Below are positions 23,058 through 60,081 of a DNA stretch of 64,000 nt, one piece after another (position 1 is the stretch's first letter; every line of letters begins with the position of its first letter). Under the pieces are notes generated by a model. It searched no databases. It saw only the letters and a list, made by a program, of their open reading frames with translations, and had not been told where the DNA came from. Location of the stretch: positions 1 through 64,000 of the IMG/VR virus record IMGVR_UViG_3300046616_000431. One strand, given 5' to 3'. Origin of the DNA: a virus. A program made the position numbers and the translations under genes.

Positions 23058-24350
23058 TCAGACGGTTTCGAGGCGCCGGTGGAACTTGGCCATGAGGACG
23101 GGGTTGGCCATGGCGTTGCCGATCGGCAGGAACAGGGCGGTGGTGGCCAGCGGATCGTCGGCGGGCGACAGGATCGGGCATCCCGGGTTCTCGGAGTGCG
23201 GCTCGGCGCCGGTCTTCTTGAGGTGTATGGCGGCGCGCAGCAGGTAGGCGGGGACGACATGATCGGGCAGGCCCAGCTCACGGACGGTCTCCTGGCTTTC
23301 GTCGCGCAGGCTGGCCGGGAGGTACGCCTGGAGCCGGATGGAGGCGTCGCAGATCTCGGTGACCCGGCGGTGCAGCCGCTGGTCCAGGCCGCGCCAGTTC
23401 CAGAAGTCAATGAGCGCGCGGCGTGTCTTGCAGGCCCTCTTCATCACGACCGGTGCTCGCGGGCTCAGCTTCCGGATTACCCATCGTTCCTTGTCGCTGC
23501 GGTAGACCACAGAGGGCACGGCGTAGGTGAGGGCGCTCCACATCGGCCGCAGGTCATTGATGGCTGCGTGCATCTCCATCCGGGCGGCCATCCGTTCCCA
23601 CATCGGCGCGCTGCTTCCGACGATCATGAGGAGGCCCCAGCTGCTGAGGGCGAAGGAGGAGAAGACCGAGACGAAGCCGTCGCCGCCGAGGAACGGCTTG
23701 TCGAAGAGGCGGACTACCAGGTAGCCGATCCGCAGGTTGGCGTACGTGGCGCCGATCGAGCAGCCGATGGCCATGCCGTGCATGCCGAGCTTGAAGGCGC
23801 CCTTGGCCTTCGGGTCGCGGCTGGCGGCAGCGAGCATCATGGAGGCACAGATCGTGCCGAAGGCCATGTAGACGTAGTAGAAGAGCAGGTGCAGGGAGCC
23901 CCAGAAGTGCCCGGCCTGCTGGAAGATGTAGTCCCCGCCCCCGTCCCCGTCCACGTTCCGGGAGGCCTGGGGAAACAGGATCACGCTGACAGCGACCGCT
24001 GCCCAGGTCGCGGCGCGCCGGGGACGGTTGCTGATGACCCTGCGGTACCGGGGCTCACGCTTGCCGTCCATGCGGCCGGGAACCACGGCCATGACCCACT
24101 GCAGCAGCAGCGCGACGCCCGCGAACCTGGAGATGTGCTGGGCCAGCATGATCGCATCGTCCCTGCCCGTGGCCTGCGCAACGAAGTCTGCGACGGAGCA
24201 GATCCGGGTCGCCATGGCGATGTCCATGACCACCAGGAAGGCCCAGAGGGCGCGGCTTTTGTGGTTGCGCAGTGCGGAGGGCAGGCGCCTGATGCATTCG
24301 AGGGTCAGGGCGATGACGGTGAGGGTGAAGAGATCAGGTGTGGCGGTCAC
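23058..24350 (-). CDS. Multi-pass membrane protein (MAB_1171c-like)
   Basis: 430 residues from the GTG at 24350, whose GTGA overlaps the stop of the peptidase gene. The N-terminal 230 residues hold about seven hydrophobic segments (LFTLTVIALTLECI, LWAFLVVMDIAMA, FAGVALLLQWVMAVV, ATWAAVAVSVILF, LHLLFYYVYMAFGTI and two more). The C-terminal 190 residues are soluble, with MWSALTYAVPSVVYR and DQRLHRRVTEICDASIRL. This matches, from memory, the actinobacterial MAB_1171c family, which is often encoded next to XRE and ImmA-like genes, as here. It acts in the cytoplasmic membrane; 'putative transporter' is the common label but the substrate is unknown. Confidence 0.72.
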   Translation of the reverse strand: MTATPDLFTLTVIALTLECIRRLPSALRNHKSRALWAFLVVMDIAMATRICSVADFVAQATGRDDAIMLAQHISRFAGVALLLQWVMAVVPGRMDGKREPRYRRVISNRPRRAATWAAVAVSVILFPQASRNVDGDGGGDYIFQQAGHFWGSLHLLFYYVYMAFGTICASMMLAAASRDPKAKGAFKLGMHGMAIGCSIGATYANLRIGYLVVRLFDKPFLGGDGFVSVFSSFALSSWGLLMIVGSSAPMWERMAARMEMHAAINDLRPMWSALTYAVPSVVYRSDKERWVIRKLSPRAPVVMKRACKTRRALIDFWNWRGLDQRLHRRVTEICDASIRLQAYLPASLRDESQETVRELGLPDHVVPAYLLRAAIHLKKTGAEPHSENPGCPILSPADDPLATTALFLPIGNAMANPVLMAKFHRRLETV

Positions 24351-24880
24351 CAAAACTCGTTTCGTGTATCGAGGCACTCTCTGATGTTGTCGACCAGGCT
24401 GGACCCCGGCGGGAGGGTTCGTGCCAGCCAGTCATCCGCGAAGTAGCTGAACTCTTCCGCTCGCTGCTCGCGGGGGTCGCTGAAGTCGGTCCTGCACATG
24501 CTGGAGGCCCACAGCGCCGCACTGGTGTGGCGGCAGAGGCCCTGGAGGAGCCTCATGAGGTCCTTGAGGTCGATCGGGTCGGGCTCGTCGCCGTTGACCA
24601 TGTGACCGAGTTCGTGGCTGACTATTCGGCGTTCCAGGACGCCGGTCGCTGCGGGGTGGATCCAGACGAGGTCGATGTTCCCGCTGCTGACCCACATGCC
24701 GCTCGGGCCGCTGGGAGACGCGGCCTGGGGATCACGGGTCACCACGAGGCGGTGTCCTCGCACCTGGCGGACGTACTCGCGAAGCAGAAGCTCGGGTGTC
24801 CGGGGCCCGTCAGGGAGAACGAGGTCCTGGAGGGCCTTGTTCCACTCGCTTCTGACGCCCCTGCCCCGCCTCAACTTCAC
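24347..24880 (-). CDS. ImmA/IrrE-type zinc metallopeptidase
   Basis: 177 residues from GTG 24880 (GAGGGGGCG upstream). The catalytic HExxH motif is VSHELGHMVNGD, with a downstream acidic residue in EQRAEEFSYFADDWLAR as the likely third ligand. Order and length fit the ImmA/IrrE group, which cleaves XRE-type repressors (known for ImmA/ImmR of ICEBs1). The XRE regulator is immediately upstream and the membrane protein is coupled downstream. Together they look like a signal-controlled repressor switch: membrane sensor, protease, repressor (inference). Confidence 0.8.
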   Translation of the reverse strand: MKLRRGRGVRSEWNKALQDLVLPDGPRTPELLLREYVRQVRGHRLVVTRDPQAASPSGPSGMWVSSGNIDLVWIHPAATGVLERRIVSHELGHMVNGDEPDPIDLKDLMRLLQGLCRHTSAALWASSMCRTDFSDPREQRAEEFSYFADDWLARTLPPGSSLVDNIRECLDTRNEFW

Positions 24881-26479: not shown

Positions 26480-29179
26480 GTGCTGAAGTTCGCCACGGCC
26501 CAGATCATCGCCGCCAGCCTCGGCGACCAGCAGCGCGTCACGAAGGCCGCCCACCGCGCCGTCTTCAGCTACGAGGCGCGGCCGGGATACCTGTACGTGC
26601 GCTCCCGGGCCATCTCCTCGCGCTGCAACGACAACTGGGACGAGTTCCCCGCCGAGGAGATCGCGAAGGCGTACGGCTCCTTCGTCGGCAAGCCGGTCTT
26701 CGTGAACCACAAGAACGACAACCACCGGCGGGCGCGCGGCGTCATCATCGACGCCGCCCTCCACGAGGACAAGAACCCCGACGGCACCCCGGACACCTGG
26801 GCCGAGGTCCTCATGGAGATCGACGCCAAGCAGTTCCCGAAGCTGGCCAAGGCGATCCTCGCCGGTCACATCGACCGGACCTCCATGGGCTGCGACGTCG
26901 AGCGCTCCGTGTGCTCCGCCTGCGGCAACGTGGCGACCACCCCGGCCGAATACTGCGCACACATCCCGGGCCTGAAGGGCAAGCGGCTCTTCCGGCACAC
27001 CGCCTCCGGCCAGCGCGTCGGCGAGCTGGTCCGCGAGACCTGCTACGGCCTGTCATTCTTCGAGAACTCGGTCCTCGTCGAGCCCCCGGCCGATCCGACG
27101 GCCCACTTCCTCGGCGTGGACTCCTCCGGCCTCGGCAAGGCCGCCGCGATCGACTTCTCCGACTACGACCACGACGGCCTGGAAGAGGACGACGACGAGG
27201 AGAACAAGCCGCACACCCCGACGCCCACGGCTCCTTCGCAGCACCCTCGTCCGGCCCAGCCGCACGTCCCGAACAACGGGACCGCGCACGACAACCAGCG
27301 ACGTCGTGACGTCGTAACGAACACGCACCCCTTCACACCGCTGAAGCCCAGCCTCAACACCCTGCAGACGACGGCCTCCCTCGAAGTCGAGGCGGCCGGA
27401 CCCCAGTACCAGAACCCGGGCGACCACCCCTGGTTCAAGGAGACCGGACTCAGCCACGAGCACGTCCTGAACCACTGGGACCAGGCCACCGACGAGGAGA
27501 AGAAGCAGGGCGCCCGCTGGTACCCGGACGCCCACCACGTCGCCAAGGCCATCGCGAAGCTGAACCCCGACATCACGGACGACAAGGAGGCCGCCCACAA
27601 GGGCGCCGGTGTCCTGTCGGCCTACAGCCCGCAGCAGAACTGGTGGGCCAACCAGCACAACGCCGCACGCTCGTTCGTCGGCAAGAAGGCCGTCGGCAAG
27701 GGCGAGGGCCTGATGGTCATGTCCTCCCACGCCAACGCCGCGCAGAAGATCCTGGACGGCGAGGACCACCAGAAGGTCCTCAAGGGCCCCAAGACCCAGG
27801 ACTTCGCCCACCTGATCGAGCACGGCGGCAACGACGAACACGGCCAGCCGTCCAAGCGCGTCGTCATCGACCGGCACGCCCTGTCCGTCGCCGCCGGACG
27901 CCGCCTGAACGCCGACGACTCCAAGGGCTTCCCCTCCAGCAACCGGCACTACTACGAGCACGCCGCCGACCAGTACCGCACGGCCGCCGCCGTCATATCC
28001 GACCGCGAGAAGCGCCACGTCCCGCCGCACGAGGTCCAGGCCGTCACCTGGCTCACCCGCCAGCGCCTGAACGCGGCCGAGGACGAAGGCTCCCCGGGCG
28101 GCAAGGGCCGCCAGACCGTGCAGCGCAACCAGCGCCAGCAGTGGAAGGACCTCGCGGGCGAGCACACCCCCCAGCTCAAGGACGACGGCAACTCGCACGT
28201 CTCCAAGCTCGTCAGCGCCGACGCCATCCTGGAGGACGGCACGATCCGCACCGTGGCGTACGGAGAGGTCAAGGCCCCGGCCGACGTCGACACCCTCCGC
28301 GAGGAAAACTGCCCCGTCTGCGGCGACAGCGACACCTACGACGGCCAGGCCTGCCAGATCTGCGGGTTCATCAGCCCGCCGACACAGTTCCGCGACCCCG
28401 ACCTCGACATGGCCAAGCGCCTCGACCTGCGCAAGCAGATCGTCGACCCCTCCCTCGTCGACAACAACGGCGAGCTGCAGCGCGTCGACCAGGACGGCAA
28501 CGCCATGCCGCAGGACCCGAACGCCGACCCCAACGCGGACCCCAACGACCCCGACGCGCAGGCCGACCCCAACGACCCGAACGCGCAGATGGTCGACCCG
28601 GACCAGCTCGACGAGAACGGCCTGCCGCCGTCCCCGTACGGAGACCAGGCCCTCGACGGCACCCAGCAGGGCCCCAGCCAGTCCGACCGCAACGGCGACG
28701 GCATGATCCAGCCCAACGAGATCGACATGGACGGCAACGCCAACGTCCAGCAGCAGGTCGACCCGGAGATGGGCGGCCAGGCCGGACCCCGCGAACTGCC
28801 CGGCTGGGGCAAGGACCGCACCGGCGACGCCTTCACCCCCGGCCCCGACATGCCCTACCGCCCCGACGAGCCGGGCAACCCCAACGACGTCCTCGGCCAG
28901 GACGACGACGACCGCAACCCGATGGGCATGCCGACCCCGGCCCCCATGATGGGCCGCCCCGGCGACGGCATCCCGGACCTGATGTGCGGCAACTGCGGCT
29001 TCGCAGCCGACGCCACCCCGCCCCAGACCCAGAACATGGGCGACCCCATGGCGGCCACCGACGGCGTACTCGACGGCGACGTCTGCCCCAGCTGCCAGCG
29101 CGGCCAGCTCCTGACCCCCGGCGAGATCAACTCGAACTATTCCAAGGCACCTGCTGTCGAGCACCCCGCATACAGCTGA
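26480..29179 (+). CDS. Capsid maturation protease fused to DUF7178-like and zinc-ribbon domains
   Basis: 899 residues from GTG 26480 (ACAGGAGG). Residues 1-230 (SFVGKPVFVNHKNDNHRRAR, ILAGHIDRTSMGCDVER, TCYGLSFFENSVLVEPPADP) resemble head proteases of large actinobacterial myoviruses, with a CSACGN...YC insertion. Residues about 305-540 hold GAGVLSAYSPQQNWWANQHNAARS and VVIDRHALSVAAGRRLN, which I relate from memory to DUF7178, a phage family of unknown function. Then follow a ribbon (CPVCGD...CQICGF), an Asp/Pro/Asn tract (DPNADPNDPDAQADPNDPN) and a last ribbon (CGNCGF...CPSC). The position before scaffold and capsid genes supports the protease call. The fusion is unusual. Confidence 0.65.
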   Translation: MLKFATAQIIAASLGDQQRVTKAAHRAVFSYEARPGYLYVRSRAISSRCNDNWDEFPAEEIAKAYGSFVGKPVFVNHKNDNHRRARGVIIDAALHEDKNPDGTPDTWAEVLMEIDAKQFPKLAKAILAGHIDRTSMGCDVERSVCSACGNVATTPAEYCAHIPGLKGKRLFRHTASGQRVGELVRETCYGLSFFENSVLVEPPADPTAHFLGVDSSGLGKAAAIDFSDYDHDGLEEDDDEENKPHTPTPTAPSQHPRPAQPHVPNNGTAHDNQRRRDVVTNTHPFTPLKPSLNTLQTTASLEVEAAGPQYQNPGDHPWFKETGLSHEHVLNHWDQATDEEKKQGARWYPDAHHVAKAIAKLNPDITDDKEAAHKGAGVLSAYSPQQNWWANQHNAARSFVGKKAVGKGEGLMVMSSHANAAQKILDGEDHQKVLKGPKTQDFAHLIEHGGNDEHGQPSKRVVIDRHALSVAAGRRLNADDSKGFPSSNRHYYEHAADQYRTAAAVISDREKRHVPPHEVQAVTWLTRQRLNAAEDEGSPGGKGRQTVQRNQRQQWKDLAGEHTPQLKDDGNSHVSKLVSADAILEDGTIRTVAYGEVKAPADVDTLREENCPVCGDSDTYDGQACQICGFISPPTQFRDPDLDMAKRLDLRKQIVDPSLVDNNGELQRVDQDGNAMPQDPNADPNADPNDPDAQADPNDPNAQMVDPDQLDENGLPPSPYGDQALDGTQQGPSQSDRNGDGMIQPNEIDMDGNANVQQQVDPEMGGQAGPRELPGWGKDRTGDAFTPGPDMPYRPDEPGNPNDVLGQDDDDRNPMGMPTPAPMMGRPGDGIPDLMCGNCGFAADATPPQTQNMGDPMAATDGVLDGDVCPSCQRGQLLTPGEINSNYSKAPAVEHPAYS
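27300..27313. other. Recurrent 14-mer GACGTCGTGACGTC, copy 3
   Basis: Lies in the linker of the protease gene (reads D-V-V-T). It breaks an otherwise low-complexity stretch and is identical to the copies at 522-535 and 4277-4290. Confidence 0.4.
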
Positions 29180-30813: not shown

Positions 30814-31803
30814 ATGACCGCAGCGCTCCACGCTGGGCACAAGGGCGGCGTCACCGCCAAGAAGTCCGACGACTACGTCAACGACATCCTCGCCCGCCGC
30901 GAGAGCCAGGGCCACGCCCCGCTCTCCACCCAGGCGAAGATGCAGCGCCTCCAGTCCGTCGTCTCCGACCAGACCAACGGCATCAAGCGCCTGGGCGTCG
31001 GCATGATCGGCCCCATCCAGTTGAAGCTCCGCTACCAGGGCATCACCCGGAACGTGCTGGTCGAGGACCCCTGCACCCCCGGCACACCGGTCGAGTACGA
31101 CGTGTGGGACGACCTCGGTCAGGCCTACATGATGTCCGGCACCGAGGGCGAAGTCCGCATCACCCCCTTCGAAGGCAAGCGCATCCAGGTGCGGTTCTTC
31201 CGCATAGCCTCGCGCCCCGCCATCCGCAAGGAAGACCTCCTCTACCTGCGCATCAACGCGGTCGAGCAGGCCCAGGACGAGACCAAGCAGGCCATCCTCA
31301 AGCAGGAGGACTCGCGCCTGATCACGATCCTCCAGGCCGCGATCTCGGACTACACCAACCGCTCCGACCACACGGTCACCCCCAACCACGTGGTCAACGA
31401 GGCGTCGGGCTACCTGACCCCGGGCTCGCTCTACAGCGCGGTCTCCCTGACCGACATGCACGAGCTGCAGTCCAGCCGCATCCTGATCAACCCGATGGAC
31501 TACCGCGACATGTACCGGTGGGACATCAACCAGACGGGCTGGGCCTTCAAGGACCGCGTCGTCGCGGGCGAGACGATCACCTCGTTCGGCGAGTTCCAGC
31601 TCCAGCGCTCCATCGTCGTCCCTCAGGGCGAGACCTACCTGACCCCGGACCCGCAGTTCCTCGGCGTCTTCCCGGTCCTGTACTCGCTCGATGTCGAGGA
31701 AAACCACCGCGTGGAAAGTTTCTGGAAGGGTTGGGTCTTCGATGAGATGATCAGCATGCTGATTTTGAATCCGCGCGGCCTCGCGAAAATCGTGAAGTCG
31801 TAG
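30814..31803 (+). CDS. Major capsid protein
   Basis: 329 residues; ribosome site AGAGGAA. Builds the icosahedral head, HK97-type fold inferred. Support: length, place after the decoration candidate and the protease, and a pattern with an N-terminal helical arm, EYDVWDDLGQAYMMSGTEGEVRITPFEGKRIQVRFFRIASRP (E-loop and P-domain-like) and DMYRWDINQTGWAFKDRVVAGETITSFGEFQLQRSIVVPQG. The last 100 bases use AT-ending codons (GAA, AGT, GGT, GAT, ATT, TTG, AAT, AAA) more than the rest. The C-terminus GLAKIVKS is repeated at the end of the next gene (GLGKIVKS). Confidence 0.85.
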   Translation: MTAALHAGHKGGVTAKKSDDYVNDILARRESQGHAPLSTQAKMQRLQSVVSDQTNGIKRLGVGMIGPIQLKLRYQGITRNVLVEDPCTPGTPVEYDVWDDLGQAYMMSGTEGEVRITPFEGKRIQVRFFRIASRPAIRKEDLLYLRINAVEQAQDETKQAILKQEDSRLITILQAAISDYTNRSDHTVTPNHVVNEASGYLTPGSLYSAVSLTDMHELQSSRILINPMDYRDMYRWDINQTGWAFKDRVVAGETITSFGEFQLQRSIVVPQGETYLTPDPQFLGVFPVLYSLDVEENHRVESFWKGWVFDEMISMLILNPRGLAKIVKS

Positions 31804-52824: not shown

Positions 52825-55317
52825 GTGGTCCAGATTCCGAACTTCGTGATGGCTCCTGGGGTCAAGGTCTACATCGCGACCGAGAAGCACGGGATCATCG
52901 ACGTCTCGGACGACCTGGTCGAGGGCTCGATGACGCGGCGTTCCGACGGCGTCAGCTCGTTCAGCTTCTCGCTGCAGAACGTGCGCCGGAAGTACGACGG
53001 GGTCCTGTCGCCGAACGACCGCGTCGCCGTCCAGATGAAGCGCCTGAAGTGGGTGCAGGTCTACACCGGCTACCTGAACAAGGTGCCGCTGGTGACGGCC
53101 TGGCCGCGCGTGGTTCACCTGACGTCGTCCTGCTCGCTGAAGCGCCTGCAGTACTGGTACTGGGACTCCCACGCCGAGGCCTCCCAGATGATGGTGAGGC
53201 AGGCGCTGACGGACGCGGGCAAGGAGTCCGGCGTCAGCGACGGCGGCATGACCAACGTGATCTTGACGATCCTGAAGAAGGTCGTCGGCTGGCCCGAGTC
53301 GAGGGTCCACATCGCGAAGATCCCCGGCAACTGGTTCGGCGTCGTCGAGACCCTGGCCAAGCAGATCAACGCCGAACTCGACAACGCGGACAAGATCGCC
53401 CGGACCCTCCTTGAGTCGCTGGGCACCGCTTCGGTCGGCGTGGGCGGCGGCGACGCCAGCTCGCTGACCGGCGAGTACGGCGGCTTCAACTCCTCCGAGC
53501 AGAAGAAGAACGGCGCGACGATCTACTCGGTCGGCAAGCAGAAGGGCGGCAGCACCCGGGACTGCATCATCGCGATCATGACGGCGATGCAGGAGTCGGG
53601 CCTGGTCAACCTCGACCACGGCGACCGGGACTCGATCGGCCTGTTCCAGCAGCGCCCGAGCCAGGGCTGGGGAACCAAGGCCGAGATCATGAACCCGGAG
53701 TACTCGGCGGGGAAGTTCTTCGAGGCCCTGTTCAAGGTCAAGAACCGCGACAGCATGGAGCTGTGGGAGGCCTGCCAGGCTGTGCAGCGCTCCGGCCTTC
53801 CGAGGGCCTACGCGGCGCACGAGAAGGCCGCCACGGCGATGGTGCGCGACCTGGAGAAGGGCAAGAGCGGCGACAAGAACACGGACGACCTGAAGTCCAA
53901 GCCGCAGGGCACCTCCAGCGGCCTCGCGCTGGCGCAGACGGCCGTGAACTACTGCAGCAAGTACCCGAACATCCCGTACACCCAGAAGTACGGCGGCACG
54001 CAGATGGACGTCCTGACGGCGAACCCGCCGCCGGGCCTGGACTGCTCCAGCTTCGTGCAGGCGATGTACCTGCGGACCATGGGCAGCCTCTACAGCCTGC
54101 CGCGCGTGGCCGCCGACCAGTACGCCTTCTGCAAGGACGTCTCCGTGGAGACAGCCCTCAAGACGCCCGGGGCGCTGGTCTTCAAGGGCGGCTCGGCCAG
54201 CGGCATCTACCACGTCGAGATGTCCCTGGGGGACGGCAAGAGCACGGTCGGCGCGCACCGCGCCGGGGCCAAGCCGCACGATGTCGGCGTCAACCCGCCG
54301 TCGGCCGCTAGCTACTGGGACTTCGGCGGCTTCCTGCCCCGCATCGCCTACACGACCGGCGCGGGCGGGGTCATCTTCGAGGGCACGGACGGGGTCGAGG
54401 GGGCCGCCAGCTCCACCGAGCCTGTCGTCGAGCTGGTCACCGGCGCGGACGCGCCCGGCTACAACCCGGACGACCCCTTTGACAAGATGTTCGGCGACAA
54501 CGCCTGGCTGCCGATCTCGACGGCCGAGAACGACCCGAACTACGCCATGGCGCAGATGCTGGCGGGGCCGCGCGCGCTGCTCAACGACCAGCCGTTGCTG
54601 CCCTACCTGAAGAACCTGTTCAACTCGACGATGAGGTCGTTCTCCTCGGCGCCGAACGGGGACCTGATCGCCTGGTACCCGGACTACTACGGCATGTGGG
54701 GCGCCGCCGCGAAAATGGTCATCGAGCCCATCGAGGTCCAGGACTTCGAGGTGAGCTGGTCGGACGACTACATGGTCACGCACCAGTTCGTGGTGACCAG
54801 CCCGCAGGGGTCGACGAACACCTTCGACCCGGCGACCGGCACCATCCAGTCGATCACCCAGGACTACCTGGCCCAGTCGGCGATCTTCACGACAGGCGTG
54901 GTCTCGGTGGACTTCCCGGGCGTCTGGAAGGCCCTCTTCGGCATGGATATGACCGAGAAGCAGGCCAAGGCGTACGCCGACAACATCAAGAAGCGCTTCG
55001 GCGCCCGGCCGGACTACCAGCAGCTGCCGGGCCTGGTCGGGCCGAAGGCGCAGCTGTTCGCCGCGATCTTCCTCTTCATGAGGCAGTTCGCGTACCAGTA
55101 CCAGGCGTCGGTGCCGCTGACATTCATGCCGGAGCTGTACCCCGGCATGCTCATCCAGATCCCGGCCTTCAACTTCCAGGCGTACGTCACCACCGTGACG
55201 CACACCTTCAAGTTCGGGCCTGACGGCTACTTCAACACGGCGGTCAACATCGCGGCTCCGGCCCGCCTCACCGGCGACAAGAAGCTGCTCGGACTCCCCA
55301 TGGCTGGTGGCCAGTGA
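52825..55317 (+). CDS. Baseplate hub carrying transglycosylase-like and NlpC/P60 domains
   Basis: 830 residues from GTG 52825; ATG 52849 is a fallback. Residues 1-200 and 520-830 are gpD/gp27-like hub parts (GVKVYIATEKHGIIDVSDDLVEGSM, PLTFMPELYPGMLIQIPAFNFQAYVTTVTHTFKFG). Inserted are two cell-wall enzymes. At about 240-340 MTAMQESGLVNLDHGDRDSIGLFQQ has the lytic transglycosylase Glu at 257. At about 370-510 GLDCSSFVQAMYL (Cys about 407) and GIYHVEMSLG (His about 462) form an NlpC/P60 domain. It would sit at the tail tip and open peptidoglycan during injection. Having both hydrolases in one hub is notable. Confidence 0.85.
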   Translation: MVQIPNFVMAPGVKVYIATEKHGIIDVSDDLVEGSMTRRSDGVSSFSFSLQNVRRKYDGVLSPNDRVAVQMKRLKWVQVYTGYLNKVPLVTAWPRVVHLTSSCSLKRLQYWYWDSHAEASQMMVRQALTDAGKESGVSDGGMTNVILTILKKVVGWPESRVHIAKIPGNWFGVVETLAKQINAELDNADKIARTLLESLGTASVGVGGGDASSLTGEYGGFNSSEQKKNGATIYSVGKQKGGSTRDCIIAIMTAMQESGLVNLDHGDRDSIGLFQQRPSQGWGTKAEIMNPEYSAGKFFEALFKVKNRDSMELWEACQAVQRSGLPRAYAAHEKAATAMVRDLEKGKSGDKNTDDLKSKPQGTSSGLALAQTAVNYCSKYPNIPYTQKYGGTQMDVLTANPPPGLDCSSFVQAMYLRTMGSLYSLPRVAADQYAFCKDVSVETALKTPGALVFKGGSASGIYHVEMSLGDGKSTVGAHRAGAKPHDVGVNPPSAASYWDFGGFLPRIAYTTGAGGVIFEGTDGVEGAASSTEPVVELVTGADAPGYNPDDPFDKMFGDNAWLPISTAENDPNYAMAQMLAGPRALLNDQPLLPYLKNLFNSTMRSFSSAPNGDLIAWYPDYYGMWGAAAKMVIEPIEVQDFEVSWSDDYMVTHQFVVTSPQGSTNTFDPATGTIQSITQDYLAQSAIFTTGVVSVDFPGVWKALFGMDMTEKQAKAYADNIKKRFGARPDYQQLPGLVGPKAQLFAAIFLFMRQFAYQYQASVPLTFMPELYPGMLIQIPAFNFQAYVTTVTHTFKFGPDGYFNTAVNIAAPARLTGDKKLLGLPMAGGQ

Positions 55318-55904
55318 TCGGCAGCGCAGCAACGCACGGGCTCGCCTGGTCCCTGAAGCAGGTCGTCCTGCGCGAGGTGGACCGGGCCAAGGGGCTGGCC
55401 CTCGGGGTCGACACCGAGGGGCAGTACGTCGAGGTGCGCCTGAGCATCCGCCGTTCGGGCATCGTCCCGAAGGTAGGCCAGACCTGGCTGATCGACCGCG
55501 ACTTCGGGGTGTGGTCCCTGGCTGCGCTGGTCGACCTCGCCCCGCCCGACGTGACCGGCGGGGAGTGGCTGCCGCTGACGCTGAAGAACGGCTGGACCGG
55601 CCCCACCACGACGGCTGACGCGCCCGCGCAGGCCCGCCTGAGCAACGGGTGGATCGAGGTCAGCGGCGTCATCAACGGCGGCACGGTACCGGCCGTGGGG
55701 GTCGACCTGGTGGTCGCGACGCTCCCCAGCGCCCTCCCGGCCCACTACAAGGGCAACGCTGTTCTGGCCAGCAACCTGCCCAGCGGGACGGTCGGCTACG
55801 TCCGCGCGGGCCTCCTGCAGAACGGGGACATCACAATCAAGGTCTCGCAGGCCTACACCCCGGCCTGGATCGACCTCAGCACCCTGAAAGCCCGGGTGAC
55901 ATGA
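55314..55904 (+). CDS. Baseplate spike or tail-tip protein, 196 aa
   Basis: GTG 55314 overlaps the hub stop (GTGA). First half (LKQVVLREVDRAKGLALGVDTEGQYVEVRLSIRRSGIVPKVGQTWLIDRDFG) resembles an OB-fold spike such as gpV; the rest is a jelly-roll-like segment (GWTGPTTTADAPAQARLSNGWIEVSGVINGG) found in many phage fibres. It would sit below the hub. Ends next to the bidirectional terminator at 55904-55933. Confidence 0.66.
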   Translation: MIGSAATHGLAWSLKQVVLREVDRAKGLALGVDTEGQYVEVRLSIRRSGIVPKVGQTWLIDRDFGVWSLAALVDLAPPDVTGGEWLPLTLKNGWTGPTTTADAPAQARLSNGWIEVSGVINGGTVPAVGVDLVVATLPSALPAHYKGNAVLASNLPSGTVGYVRAGLLQNGDITIKVSQAYTPAWIDLSTLKARVT

Positions 55905-55933
55905 AAAAAGTGAGACCCATGGGTCTCACTTTT
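55904..55933. terminator. Bidirectional terminator with perfect 20-bp palindrome
   Basis: GTGAGACCCATGGGTCTCAC (55910-55929) flanked by A6 and T4. It separates the forward tail operon from the reverse partition operon. Confidence 0.9.
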
Positions 55934-55943
55934 CCCGCCCTCA

Positions 55944-56005
55944 AAAACTGTGACATGCATGTCACAGAACTGGGGCTCCGAAAACTGTGACATGCATGTC
56001 ACAGA
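55944..56005. repeat. Two palindromic direct repeats, candidate parS centromere
   Basis: CTGTGACATGCATGTCACAG, a perfect 20-bp palindrome, occurs at 55948-55967 and 55985-56004; identity extends to 25 bases (55944-55968, 55981-56005). Centres are 37 bases apart, about 3.5 helical turns. They lie at the 3' end of the partition operon, the usual place of many centromeres, nine bases from the ParB-position gene. No other copy was seen in the window. Confidence 0.72.
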
Positions 56006-56012
56006 TCCGAGG

Positions 56013-56897
56013 TCAGCTCTTGAGCAAGCCTTCAGCCTCGGCCAGCCTCTGCTTCATCTCATCGACATACTCCTGAGCGGACTGCCGGTCGACCGTGACC
56101 AGCTCCTTGAGGAGCCCCAGGTCGATCTTTCCGGCGGCCCGAGCCTCCTTCAGGCGGACATCGACAGGGCGCGACTGGCGGGCGCCGATCGCCTTCGGCT
56201 CCTGCGCAGCGGCGGCACTGGCGTCCATTAGGCGGCGGAGATTCTTTACCGCCGAGACGGTCACCGGCCCTTCGGCTGCCAGCTCGTCGTACTTGGCCCG
56301 GAGGAGGTCGGGGTCATCCTTACCCAGGGCGTAGAGCTGCTCGACCACCAGCTGCGCCAGCGGAGTGGTCACTCGACTCCCCAGCGTCGAGTAGACAACG
56401 TAGTGCCGGATCGCGCGGTAGTAGACGTGCCGCTCGATGCCGATCGCCTTGGCGAACTTCTCAACGGACTTGTGGCCGCCCGCCGTGTAGCTGCCCTTCT
56501 TCTGAACCTCGGCGAACCAGCGGCCGGTGAGGATCCAGTAGTTGGTCTCGATCTGGGCGAACCCGTTCCCGGCCGCTTCGCCGACCTTGCGGATCTGGCG
56601 TTCCGCGTGAGCAAGGTGCTGCAAGTCGGAAGAGTCATCCGGCGCCTGGACGTACTCGAAGGGGTTCGAGGGCTCCGGGGAGTGGATGATCCCTTCGAGA
56701 GGCGCCGGGGCGACCTGGTGCGGCACCTCGACCTCGGCCGGGGCGCTCGCTGCAGCCTGGGCGGCCTCCGTCAGTGCGGGGTCGTCCTCCCCTCGCCGGG
56801 CGACCGGCTTGACGGCGGCCAGCGCAGCTGCACCCTTCGCCGCCCGCCTCTCGGCCGCCGTCTTCGGTCCCTGCTTGGTTCCTTCTCCGAGCCTCAC
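56013..56897 (-). CDS. Centromere-binding protein candidate (ParB position)
   Basis: 294 residues from a GTG that overlaps the parA stop (GTGA). It has no canonical ParB N-domain. Residues 1-90 are Ala/Pro-rich and basic. A helix-turn-helix is likely near 145-165 (KSVEKFAKAIGIERHVYYRAIRHY). YGLG-like loops (ALGKDDPDLLRAKYDELAAEGPVTVSAVKNLRRLMD) and a C-terminal coiled coil (QSAQEYVDEMKQRLAEAEGLLKS) follow. It is the second gene of the partition operon and lies next to paired palindromes, so it probably binds them and partners ParA. Homology to characterised ParB or ParR proteins is not established. Confidence 0.72.
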   Translation of the reverse strand: MRLGEGTKQGPKTAAERRAAKGAAALAAVKPVARRGEDDPALTEAAQAAASAPAEVEVPHQVAPAPLEGIIHSPEPSNPFEYVQAPDDSSDLQHLAHAERQIRKVGEAAGNGFAQIETNYWILTGRWFAEVQKKGSYTAGGHKSVEKFAKAIGIERHVYYRAIRHYVVYSTLGSRVTTPLAQLVVEQLYALGKDDPDLLRAKYDELAAEGPVTVSAVKNLRRLMDASAAAAQEPKAIGARQSRPVDVRLKEARAAGKIDLGLLKELVTVDRQSAQEYVDEMKQRLAEAEGLLKS

Positions 56898-57685
56898 GCG
56901 GCCTGCTCCTCTTCCTTGATGGCCTCGCGCAGTACGTGACGCACGAGGTGGCTGAACTCGTCGAGATCGGAGAGCGTGGGGGTCTCCTCCCAGGCTCGGG
57001 TGTAGTGCGTGCGGCCACTGACGTCGAAGTAGGGGTGCACGAACGGGACCGGGATGAAGTCCGGGTCGCGCTCGCTCAGGTCGGTCGCCAGGATGGCCCG
57101 CTGCTCTTCGGGGAGCGAGGTCGCGAACTTGCAGGCGACAAAGAAGTAGTGGACGCCGAGCCCGTTCTCGTTCAGCCGGGCCGCCCTGGCTGCGGTCTGC
57201 AGGGTGGCCTGGATGCGGACGGTCTCCCAGCCGGACGGGGCGCTCGGCATCAGGAGGAGATCCCCCTGAATGCAGAGATCGGTAAAGGCTTCCTTGTCGC
57301 CTCCGCCGAGGTCCACGAGGACGACGTCGTAGTCGGCCTTCAGCTCCTTGATGCGCTTCTCCAGCGTCGGCCCCTTCTGGTCGTTCACGTTGTGCTCGAC
57401 GAGGGCAAAGGGGACCTTCTCCCCGAGCGCATCGCGGATGGCGACCCAGGTGGCCAGGGTCTGGCTGTTGAAGTCGGTGTCGACGATGACGACTCGCATT
57501 CCGAGGGTCCGGGCGAACCACAGGGCGAGGTAGAGGGTCGAGGTCGACTTGCCGGTGCCGCCCTTGAGGACACCGATGCCGACGGCGAGACCTCCTCGGG
57601 ATCGGATCCAGTCCTTGATCTGGGCGACGGGCGCCATGAGCCTCTTCAGCTCTCGGTCGTCCCTGGGTTTGTGCTTGGGGTTCAT
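56894..57685 (-). CDS. parA: ParA-type partition ATPase
   Basis: 263 residues from ATG 57685 (CAGGAGAG); the longer frame to 57718 has no ribosome site. Deviant Walker A, KGGTGKST, at residues 41-48, Walker A' DTDFNSQT, and VVLVDLGGGD as Walker B. Only 30 residues precede Walker A, so it lacks the helix-turn-helix region of type Ia ParA and resembles type Ib. It binds nonspecific DNA with ATP and moves plasmid copies. It shows that this phage genome is probably maintained as a low-copy plasmid in its lysogen (inference). Confidence 0.93.
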   Translation of the reverse strand: MNPKHKPRDDRELKRLMAPVAQIKDWIRSRGGLAVGIGVLKGGTGKSTSTLYLALWFARTLGMRVVIVDTDFNSQTLATWVAIRDALGEKVPFALVEHNVNDQKGPTLEKRIKELKADYDVVLVDLGGGDKEAFTDLCIQGDLLLMPSAPSGWETVRIQATLQTAARAARLNENGLGVHYFFVACKFATSLPEEQRAILATDLSERDPDFIPVPFVHPYFDVSGRTHYTRAWEETPTLSDLDEFSHLVRHVLREAIKEEEQAA

Positions 57686-57755
57686 GTGCTCTCCTGATTG
57701 GCGGGCTGTGGGGGCCATCCTGCCGCAAGATCCCGCCTCTCAGGCGCACCCGGTC

Positions 57756-57802: not shown

Positions 57803-58231
57803 GTGAAGACTCTGGCGCTCGTAGGCGGCGACCTGGCCCCGGGTGACGGCGGGTACCGGTTCCTGACTGGTGCTCCGCGCATCCGGCAGGACCTGGCGCT
57901 CGCGCTGGCGGAGCCGTTCGGCAACGACACCTACCACCCCGAGTACGGGTCGGTGCTCAGCTCCTACATCGGCGAGCCGCTGACGGACGAGCTGCAGCTG
58001 CTCGTGCGCTCCGAGGTGGTCCGCGTGCTGCAGCAGTACGTCGCCGCTCAGCAGGCGAACATCGCGGCCGACTCTCTGTCGGGCTCGCGGTCTCGCTACA
58101 GCTTCCAGGACGTTGTGAAGTCGGTGACGTCGATCACGACGGACATCAAGTACGACGTGCTCAAGGTCGCGGTCTCGCTGACCACCGAGTCCGGAGCGAC
58201 GGTCAAGATTCTGCGGACGGTGGACGTGTAA
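57803..58231 (+). CDS. Baseplate wedge protein, gp25-like
   Basis: 142 residues from GTG 57803 (GAGGAGG). Contains FLTGAPRIRQDLALALAEPFGNDTYHPEYGSVLSSYIGEPL, matching the gpW/gp25 baseplate family with its helix-turn opening and R(I)RQDL motif, followed by VRVLQQYVAAQQANI and a strand-rich closing part (SVTSITTDIKYDVLKVAVSLTTESG). The family builds the wedge and triggers sheath contraction. The gpJ-like gene overlaps its stop (TAATG). Confidence 0.88.
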   Translation: MKTLALVGGDLAPGDGGYRFLTGAPRIRQDLALALAEPFGNDTYHPEYGSVLSSYIGEPLTDELQLLVRSEVVRVLQQYVAAQQANIAADSLSGSRSRYSFQDVVKSVTSITTDIKYDVLKVAVSLTTESGATVKILRTVDV

Positions 58232-60081
58232 TGGGAGTCTCTCGCGAGGACATCGTCACGCAGATGCGTGACGCGCTGCTGATCTCCGACCCGGAGGTGG
58301 ACACTTCCGTCGGCACGCCGCTGCGGAAGATCCTGGACGCGGTGGCCGGGTCTCTGGCGGACGCGTACGTCGAGAACCACTTGCTGTCGTACGCCTACGA
58401 CATCGACTCGAAGATCGACGCCGACCTGGACTCGTTCACGTCGCTGTTCGGTATCTCGCGGATCCCAGCCCGGCGCGCGATCGGCTCCGTGACGTTCTCC
58501 CGGACCGGGGACCTCACGCCGACCGTCTTCATCCCGGTCGGCACCGAGGTCGCGGCGTCCAGCGACCCGGCCCTGATCGTCCAGCTGGTCACCGGCGCGA
58601 CCCTGATGCCCGGCTCGACGTCGGTCACGGTGCCGGTCCAGGCGGTCGCGGCCGGGCCGGAGGGGAACCTGGGCGCGGGCGTGGCCACGGTCATCACGTC
58701 GCCGATCCAGGGGGTCAATTCGGTGGTCAACACCGGCGCATTGACCGGTGGCACCTCCCGGGAGACGGACACCGAGCTGCGGGCGCGGTGGAAGGCCACG
58801 GTCTTCCGGTCGATGGCCGGGACCGAGCAGATGTACCTGGGCGTGGCCCTGGACGACACCGACTGCTACGCGGCGCAGGTGGTCGGCTCGTCGAAGACGC
58901 GGTCGGAGATCCTGCAGGTGCCGGTCACCGGCAACACGGTCGCACAGATCAACGACGCGAAGTACGTCTACTCCTCGCCGGTGCAGGTGGCGAAGGCGGA
59001 CGGCACGCTGCTGGTCAAGGACTACGACTACACCTGGGTGCCCAGCAATCCGCCGCAGCTCGCCGGGCTGTCGTCGTCGTTCCCGGCCGCTGGTGAGCTA
59101 CTGACGGTCAACTACCAGTACCTGCCGACGGTGAGCCGGAACGACCCGGCGACGAACATCACGAACCGGGTGGACATCTTCACCGGCGGTACCCGGGCGC
59201 AGGCGGCGCAGGCCAGCCTGATCTTCAAGAACGACAAGAAGTGGCAGACGGTCTCCACCGTCGACCTGTACACGGGAGTCTGGCTGCGCGCGGACCAGAC
59301 GCGGCCGGAGGCGGGCAACGTGTTCATCCCGCTGCCGTTCGGGCCGATCCTGAGCGTGCCCACGAACCTCACGGTCGGGGCGACCACGTACGGCCTGGCG
59401 ACGGCGGCGAACCCGATGGGGACGGTCACGGGCGGCGTCACGTACGCGTATCAGATCGTCCACGAGGACTCGGTGGACGGCTGGACACCGACGAGCCGTT
59501 TCGGCCTGGAGTGGCACCGCAACTACCTGCCCGCCAACGGCTCCTCGTTCGTGGTCGGCGGGACCGGGAACTACACCTACAACGAGGTGCCTGCGAGCGT
59601 GCAGGACGCGGTCAATCGCTGGCGGCTGGTGGGCATTGACGCCAAGGTGCACCAGGCCAAGCAGCGCTGGCTGCGGTTTGCCCTGGGCGTGATGTACACG
59701 GCCTCCTCGACCGGGTCGGTTGCCTCGGTCCAGGACGCGATCCGTACGGCACTGAGCGACTACCTGAACCGGATGGGGTTCAACAGCAACGTCCAGATCT
59801 CCGACGTGCTCTCGGTCATCCACCAGGTTCCCGGGGTGGACAACTGCCGCCTGCTGCACGGCGGGGACGTGACCGGCTACAGCTCGGCCAACCCGAACGC
59901 CTCCATCGTCGGCATGCAGCAGATCGCGCCGGGCAGCGCGTCGAACTCGGCCGCGCTGGCGTCGTACGTCGAGCCTGCCACCGGCCGGGCCAAGGACAAC
60001 TACTTCAAGGACGACGAGCTGCCGGTCCTGGGCGCCGTCGTCTTCAAGACGCTCGCGCGCAACAGCTTCGGGGTGCTCTGA
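58231..60081 (+). CDS. Baseplate J-like protein
   Basis: 616 residues, starting in the TAATG overlap with gp25. Residues 1-310 show the gpJ pattern: VDTSVGTPLRKILDAVAGSLADAYVEN, SFTSLFGISRIPARRAIGSVTFSRTGDLTPTVFIPVGTEVAAS, RETDTELRARWKATVFRSMAGTEQMYLGVALDDTDCYAAQVVGSSKTR and AAGPEGNLGAGVA. A middle strand-rich insertion lies around 330-460. Towards the end come AIRTALSDYLNRMGFNSNVQISDVLSVIHQVPGVDNCRLLHG. It joins wedges in the baseplate. Longer than P2 gpJ, as often in actinophages. Confidence 0.87.
   Translation: MGVSREDIVTQMRDALLISDPEVDTSVGTPLRKILDAVAGSLADAYVENHLLSYAYDIDSKIDADLDSFTSLFGISRIPARRAIGSVTFSRTGDLTPTVFIPVGTEVAASSDPALIVQLVTGATLMPGSTSVTVPVQAVAAGPEGNLGAGVATVITSPIQGVNSVVNTGALTGGTSRETDTELRARWKATVFRSMAGTEQMYLGVALDDTDCYAAQVVGSSKTRSEILQVPVTGNTVAQINDAKYVYSSPVQVAKADGTLLVKDYDYTWVPSNPPQLAGLSSSFPAAGELLTVNYQYLPTVSRNDPATNITNRVDIFTGGTRAQAAQASLIFKNDKKWQTVSTVDLYTGVWLRADQTRPEAGNVFIPLPFGPILSVPTNLTVGATTYGLATAANPMGTVTGGVTYAYQIVHEDSVDGWTPTSRFGLEWHRNYLPANGSSFVVGGTGNYTYNEVPASVQDAVNRWRLVGIDAKVHQAKQRWLRFALGVMYTASSTGSVASVQDAIRTALSDYLNRMGFNSNVQISDVLSVIHQVPGVDNCRLLHGGDVTGYSSANPNASIVGMQQIAPGSASNSAALASYVEPATGRAKDNYFKDDELPVLGAVVFKTLARNSFGVL

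Follow-up and report, generated by a model that had tools for sequence, protein, structure and literature searches.

A probable ParA-type partition cassette with paired palindromes in a contractile-tailed Streptomyces phage, a probable phage-plasmid

The 64,000-nucleotide stretch analysed here (the window) belongs to a virus record of 112,362 bp and carries a gene for a ParA ATPase, a second gene that overlaps it (gene 2) and a conserved pair of palindromes. These elements form one unit, consistent with one origin, which probably serves a contractile-tailed phage-plasmid of Streptomyces as its plasmid-partition cassette of the ParA type (type I). The operon lies, as had been noted, on the strand opposite to the baseplate genes around it; it is on the minus strand and interrupts the plus-strand tail genes between those for a minor tail protein and a gp25-like baseplate protein. 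The features are listed below in window coordinates.

30814..31803, plus strand: major capsid gene; its product shares 57-59% identity with the capsids of Cluster C mycobacteriophages (Myrna, HyRo, others), Gordonia phage Skog and Rhodococcus phage Finch
45239..46801, plus strand: tail sheath gene, indicating a contractile tail (PHROG 2839, E=1.8e-54; PF04984 below the cut-off)
55314..55904, plus strand: minor tail protein gene, left of the cassette (PHROG 3285)
55906..55933, no strand: 28-bp perfect palindrome AAAAGTGAGACCCATGGGTCTCACTTTT, a bidirectional terminator where the tail gene and the par operon converge
55948..55967, no strand: perfect 20-bp palindrome, distal copy; candidate parS site 2 (at most 1 mismatch in the 7 loci compared)
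55985..56004, no strand: perfect 20-bp palindrome, proximal copy; candidate parS site 1 (20/20 columns invariant in 7 loci)
56013..56897, minus strand: gene 2 (294 aa), of an orphan family; its product is a candidate centromere-binding protein with a ParB-like role
56894..57685, minus strand: parA, 263 aa, with the deviant Walker A motif KGGTGKST
57716..57727, minus strand: GGCA.GAT.G element 5' of parA, a putative promoter/operator (most columns invariant when the upstream regions of the 7 loci are aligned)
57803..58231, plus strand: gp25-like baseplate gene, right of the cassette (PHROG 2669)
58231..60081, plus strand: gp47/baseplate J-like wedge gene, on which the tree is based (PHROG 6)

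The sheath, gp25 and gp47 genes bear out the contractile-tailed phage of the original prediction. The set of structural genes is complete (major capsid, tail sheath, tape-measure position and baseplate) and syntenic with those of the phages Myrna and Skog. The phage itself encodes a DnaB-like helicase and a Pol III alpha subunit. Neither a plasmid Rep nor an origin was identified; GC skew tracked the gene strand and did not point to an origin. Elsewhere in this mostly plus-strand genome, the minus strand encodes a conserved 465-aa HTH protein (record 73610-75007), a candidate repressor or initiator, as well as a DUF6545 protein and its neighbour (window 23058-24880). Together with the HTH gene, the latter two are candidate lysogeny genes.

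The KGGTGKST motif, already noted in the original prediction, forms the P-loop at residues 41-48 of ParA, and the protein is a deviant Walker A ATPase of the ParA family, as in type I partition. No N-terminal HTH was matched in this 263-aa protein. The expected translational coupling of the second gene was also found: gene 2 overlaps parA by the sequence GTGA in the window, and an ATGA or GTGA overlap is kept at all loci. A scan for sigma-70 promoters found nothing.

Gene 2 proved as non-canonical as had been predicted, with no significant match in Pfam, PHROG or NCBIfam. Neither the ParB_N CTPase domain (PF02195) nor the ParB/Noc-type HTH (PF17762) was matched anywhere in the 112-kb record, and a canonical ParB was on these grounds rejected as the partner of ParA. 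Comparison of gene 2 with 30 actinobacterial ParBs by hhalign was likewise not significant (ParB probability 0.3%). The C-terminal 200 residues are predicted to be helical, and structure models of the full-length protein and of the core reached a pLDDT of only 64-67. Foldseek returned no significant fold match for these models (best E 0.08 to 1.6); among its hits were the DNA-binding domains of Noc (TMt 0.54-0.60), SopB (0.52) and Spo0J, at E values of 0.5 or higher, and that of VirB, all four being ParB-family proteins. The modelled helical core may weakly resemble the DNA-binding domains of ParB, Noc and SopB. We infer that the gene 2 product is a candidate centromere-binding protein because of its position, its coupling to parA and its co-conservation with the palindromes, and not through homology.

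The same order of parA, coupled gene 2 and two palindromes, at the same place, was found in relatives of the phage. Homologues of gene 2 numbered 0 in 50,697 phage records, 1 in 72,556 plasmids, 1 in 296 Streptomyces genomes (MH60) and 8 in 2.9 million viral contigs, pRLB1-9.1 and MH60 accounting for two of the eight; the cassette DNA had no match in phages. All of the viral contigs (of 2.9 million) with the exact palindrome are relatives, each with a relative of ParA, of gene 2 or of both. pRLB1-9.1 (CP041653; 154,158 bp), from Streptomyces sp. RLB1-9, is co-linear with the record from 109 kb through its numbering origin to 64 kb, and its ParA and gene 2 product are about 57% and 71% identical to those of the window. 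The co-linear MH60 contig (NZ_MULI01000008.1; 156,949 bp), a separate contig, bears the cassette at the same place (ParA about 54%, gene 2 about 75% identical). Two types of ParA, about 40% identical to each other, occur in the clade: one in the window (56894-57685), L007, MH60 and pRLB1-9.1, the other in L012/L014, L016 and L017 (for example L014:4798-5595, L016:4732-5526 and L017:7155-7964). Despite this split, gene 2 is 65-82% identical within the clade and the palindromes nearly 100%.

Both 20-bp palindromes are perfect and have the identical sequence CTGTGACATGCATGTCACAG. Shuffling yielded 0 chance copies, against the 2 in the window, and, in agreement with the original prediction, no third copy was present in the full 112,362-bp record at up to 5 mismatches. 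The proximal palindrome begins 8 bp after the gene 2 stop codon, rather than the nine bases first given; this distance is 7-10 bp in 7/7 loci. The two copies are 37 bp apart in the window and 37-38 bp apart across all 7 loci. Three relatives have an extra identical palindrome between their gp25 and gp47 genes (L014:6145-6164, L016:6075-6094 and L012:5419-5438), so the operon can have sites to either side of it. The palindromes are probably parS, a reading that had been proposed from position and symmetry and that their conservation across the 7 loci supports well.

We considered the possibility that the palindromes are mere parts of a terminator between convergent operons, with no protein partner. 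In six relatives, the distal palindrome is indeed enclosed in a terminator-like stem, followed in some by a T run, and a terminator scan flagged 55967-55948 in the window, although such matches are expected by chance. Yet the sequence of the surrounding stem differs between these relatives, with paired changes that keep it able to fold, while the enclosed palindrome is fixed. This means that the palindrome sequence, and not merely the fold, is conserved. Selection for folding only would let the palindrome drift likewise, so that a sequence-specific binder is the simplest reason for its constancy, and a pure terminator reading was dropped for this reason. Furthermore, the proximal copy has no stem of its own, the window differs from the six relatives in having a separate 28-bp palindrome as its terminator, and neither the fixed spacing nor the copies next to gp25 and gp47 fit a terminator, making this explanation very unlikely. 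The palindromes could instead be operators or replication iterons, with gene 2 encoding a repressor or replication initiator and ParA being an accessory. The lack of an identified Rep or origin and the orphan status of gene 2 would be compatible with this, as would the third site of some relatives, which lies upstream of parA, beyond gp25. However, the sites lie 3' of the operon, with none at the parA promoter in the window and no extra copy, there or elsewhere, in the 154-kb pRLB1-9.1; there are 2-3 copies only, unlike iteron arrays, and the phage itself supplies a DnaB-like helicase and Pol III alpha. We therefore regard an operator or iteron function as improbable and retain the partition sites as the preferred reading.

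Support for the predicted phage-plasmid came from the two Streptomyces replicons. pRLB1-9.1 was reported as circular, with a PFGE test, and its companion pRLB1-9.2 as linear (PMC6753273). The MH60 contig has an identical 77 bp at both ends, as expected of a circular k=77 assembly, 77 being a usual assembler word size, which indicates that the contig is a circle. A non-integrated replicon is documented for these relatives, and plasmid maintenance is represented by ParA, its partner and the sites. As two cassette-bearing relatives were sequenced as free circular plasmids, maintenance in the host in plasmid form is apparently open to this branch; for MH60, the circle might also reflect a carrier state. 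The alternative is that lysogeny proceeds by integration through a tyrosine recombinase, in which case the circles would be excised molecules or carrier states, and the par genes of secondary importance. The original prediction had seen no integrase in the window. This holds for the whole 112-kb record, in which no tyrosine or serine recombinase was found, but cannot be claimed for the whole phage, since the record is a fragment without the segment that corresponds to 64-109 kb of pRLB1-9.1. Within that segment, pRLB1-9.1 encodes two tyrosine recombinases (67029-67877 and 73279-74283), and MH60 also has two on the same contig, the first being 74% identical between the two replicons. The proposed search beyond the window thus revealed no Rep, and recombinases in the relatives only. 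Extrachromosomal prophages can carry Xer/Cre-like recombinases that resolve dimers, and given that sequencing showed both replicons as free circles, these enzymes are as likely to resolve dimers as to integrate the phage. Two independent relatives assembled as separate circles, and a par cassette kept throughout the clade, also argue against integration as the mode of lysogeny, which we consider unlikely, and favour maintenance as a partitioned plasmid.

The phage is remotely related to the Cluster C mycobacteriophages (Myrna/Bxz1; Ceeclamvirinae). Besides the capsid similarity given above, the sheath and tail order are homologous and gp47 shares about 31% identity with Cluster C-like myoviruses. 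Myrna has the same gene order, with 22 bp separating the minor tail and gp25 genes at the position of the cassette. Four closer contigs, whose gp47 is 41-52% identical, also have the same tail genes without the cassette. Unlike the phage studied here, Myrna and Skog lack a ParA-like gene, and they and the four contigs, which are possibly incomplete, showed no ParA and no tyrosine integrase in the sequence searched and no such palindromes in their tail blocks. In a tree of gp47, from which one of the four contigs (L082) was left out because its match was too short, a branch supported at 100/100 separated all cassette carriers from the other sequences, requiring one change; a single gain is thus the simplest history. 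The split between the two ParA types disagrees with this tree, which suggests exchange of ParA alleles.

The cassette was compared with known partition systems. Like the type I systems of P1 and F (type Ia) and of TP228 and pSM19035 (type Ib), it has a gene for a deviant Walker A ParA with a coupled partner gene behind it, and sites adjoining the operon. It is probably of the type I kind, though it fits neither type Ia nor type Ib cleanly. In contrast to type Ia, ParA has no N-terminal DNA-binding domain (HTH); in contrast to type Ib, the partner is 294 aa long instead of less than about 120 aa, and the sites lie downstream rather than upstream of parA. Gene 2 encodes neither a small ribbon-helix-helix protein nor a protein with ParB_N. 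The parABS systems of the Cluster A phages RedRock, Alma and Miko (Dedrick 2016, Wetzel 2020) likewise combine ParA, a partner and repeated sites in phages kept as plasmids. Their sites consist, however, of eight 8-bp direct repeats at parS-L and parS-R (PMC7157519), instead of two 20-bp palindromes, and the partner described here has no match in the phage collection, the cassette lies on the opposite strand within tail genes and the host phage is a large myovirus.

In a lysogen, the par operon would be read against the lytic direction. A dimer of the gene 2 protein may bind the palindromes (parS, on this model) through its helix-turn-helix core, and ParA-ATP on the nucleoid would then pull the bound DNA apart, allowing a low-copy circular prophage to be inherited. 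The terminator around or beside the distal palindrome would insulate the par operon from the convergent tail operon.

In PMC9262239, the plasmid-forming mycobacteriophages all belong to Cluster A, and in the literature consulted this was the only mycobacteriophage cluster with partition-bearing plasmid prophages. Cluster C-type myoviruses were regarded as non-temperate; according to PMC3029335 (2011), none of the Cluster C phages had been shown to be temperate and none encodes prophage-maintenance functions. The phages described here would represent a new lineage of actinobacterial myovirus phage-plasmids. A circular-plasmid lineage with cassette-free relatives offers a testable case of a lytic-type phage becoming a plasmid. 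We tentatively propose, as a possible history, that a lytic-type lineage of large myoviruses gave rise to plasmid prophages by a single acquisition of the cassette, with a new CTPase-less family of centromere proteins acting on two palindromes, and that the lineage subsequently exchanged ParA alleles, with no change of partner or centromere. If this is true, one shared incompatibility group is predicted. Gene 2 would provide a candidate new centromere-binding protein, and the candidate minimal two-site parS might be used as a stable element in Streptomyces vectors.

pRLB1-9.1 is already in IMG/VR as viral, and full-text literature searches found no paper discussing it as a phage-plasmid. One survey counts 78 actinobacterial plasmids with >50% prophage content (PMC10023795), and pRLB1-9.1 may already figure as phage-like in automatic surveys. 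Another paper names it among linear plasmids without Tap/Tpg (PMC7205883), in conflict with PMC6753273; this is probably a label slip. The plasmid also carries, beside its capsid gene, a 1158-aa protein annotated 'ParB/RepB/Spo0J' (139588-143064), which was considered as the true partner of ParA and rejected: its homologue in the window (26480-29179) matches DUF7178 and, at its N-terminus, a head maturation protease family, but not ParB_N, so that the 'ParB' name is probably misleading. Beside the recombinases, at 69862-71032 (L019:19862-21032), pRLB1-9.1 encodes a putative ATP-grasp-modified RiPP precursor and an MvdC/MvdD-type ATP-grasp enzyme, possibly a peptide-making cargo.
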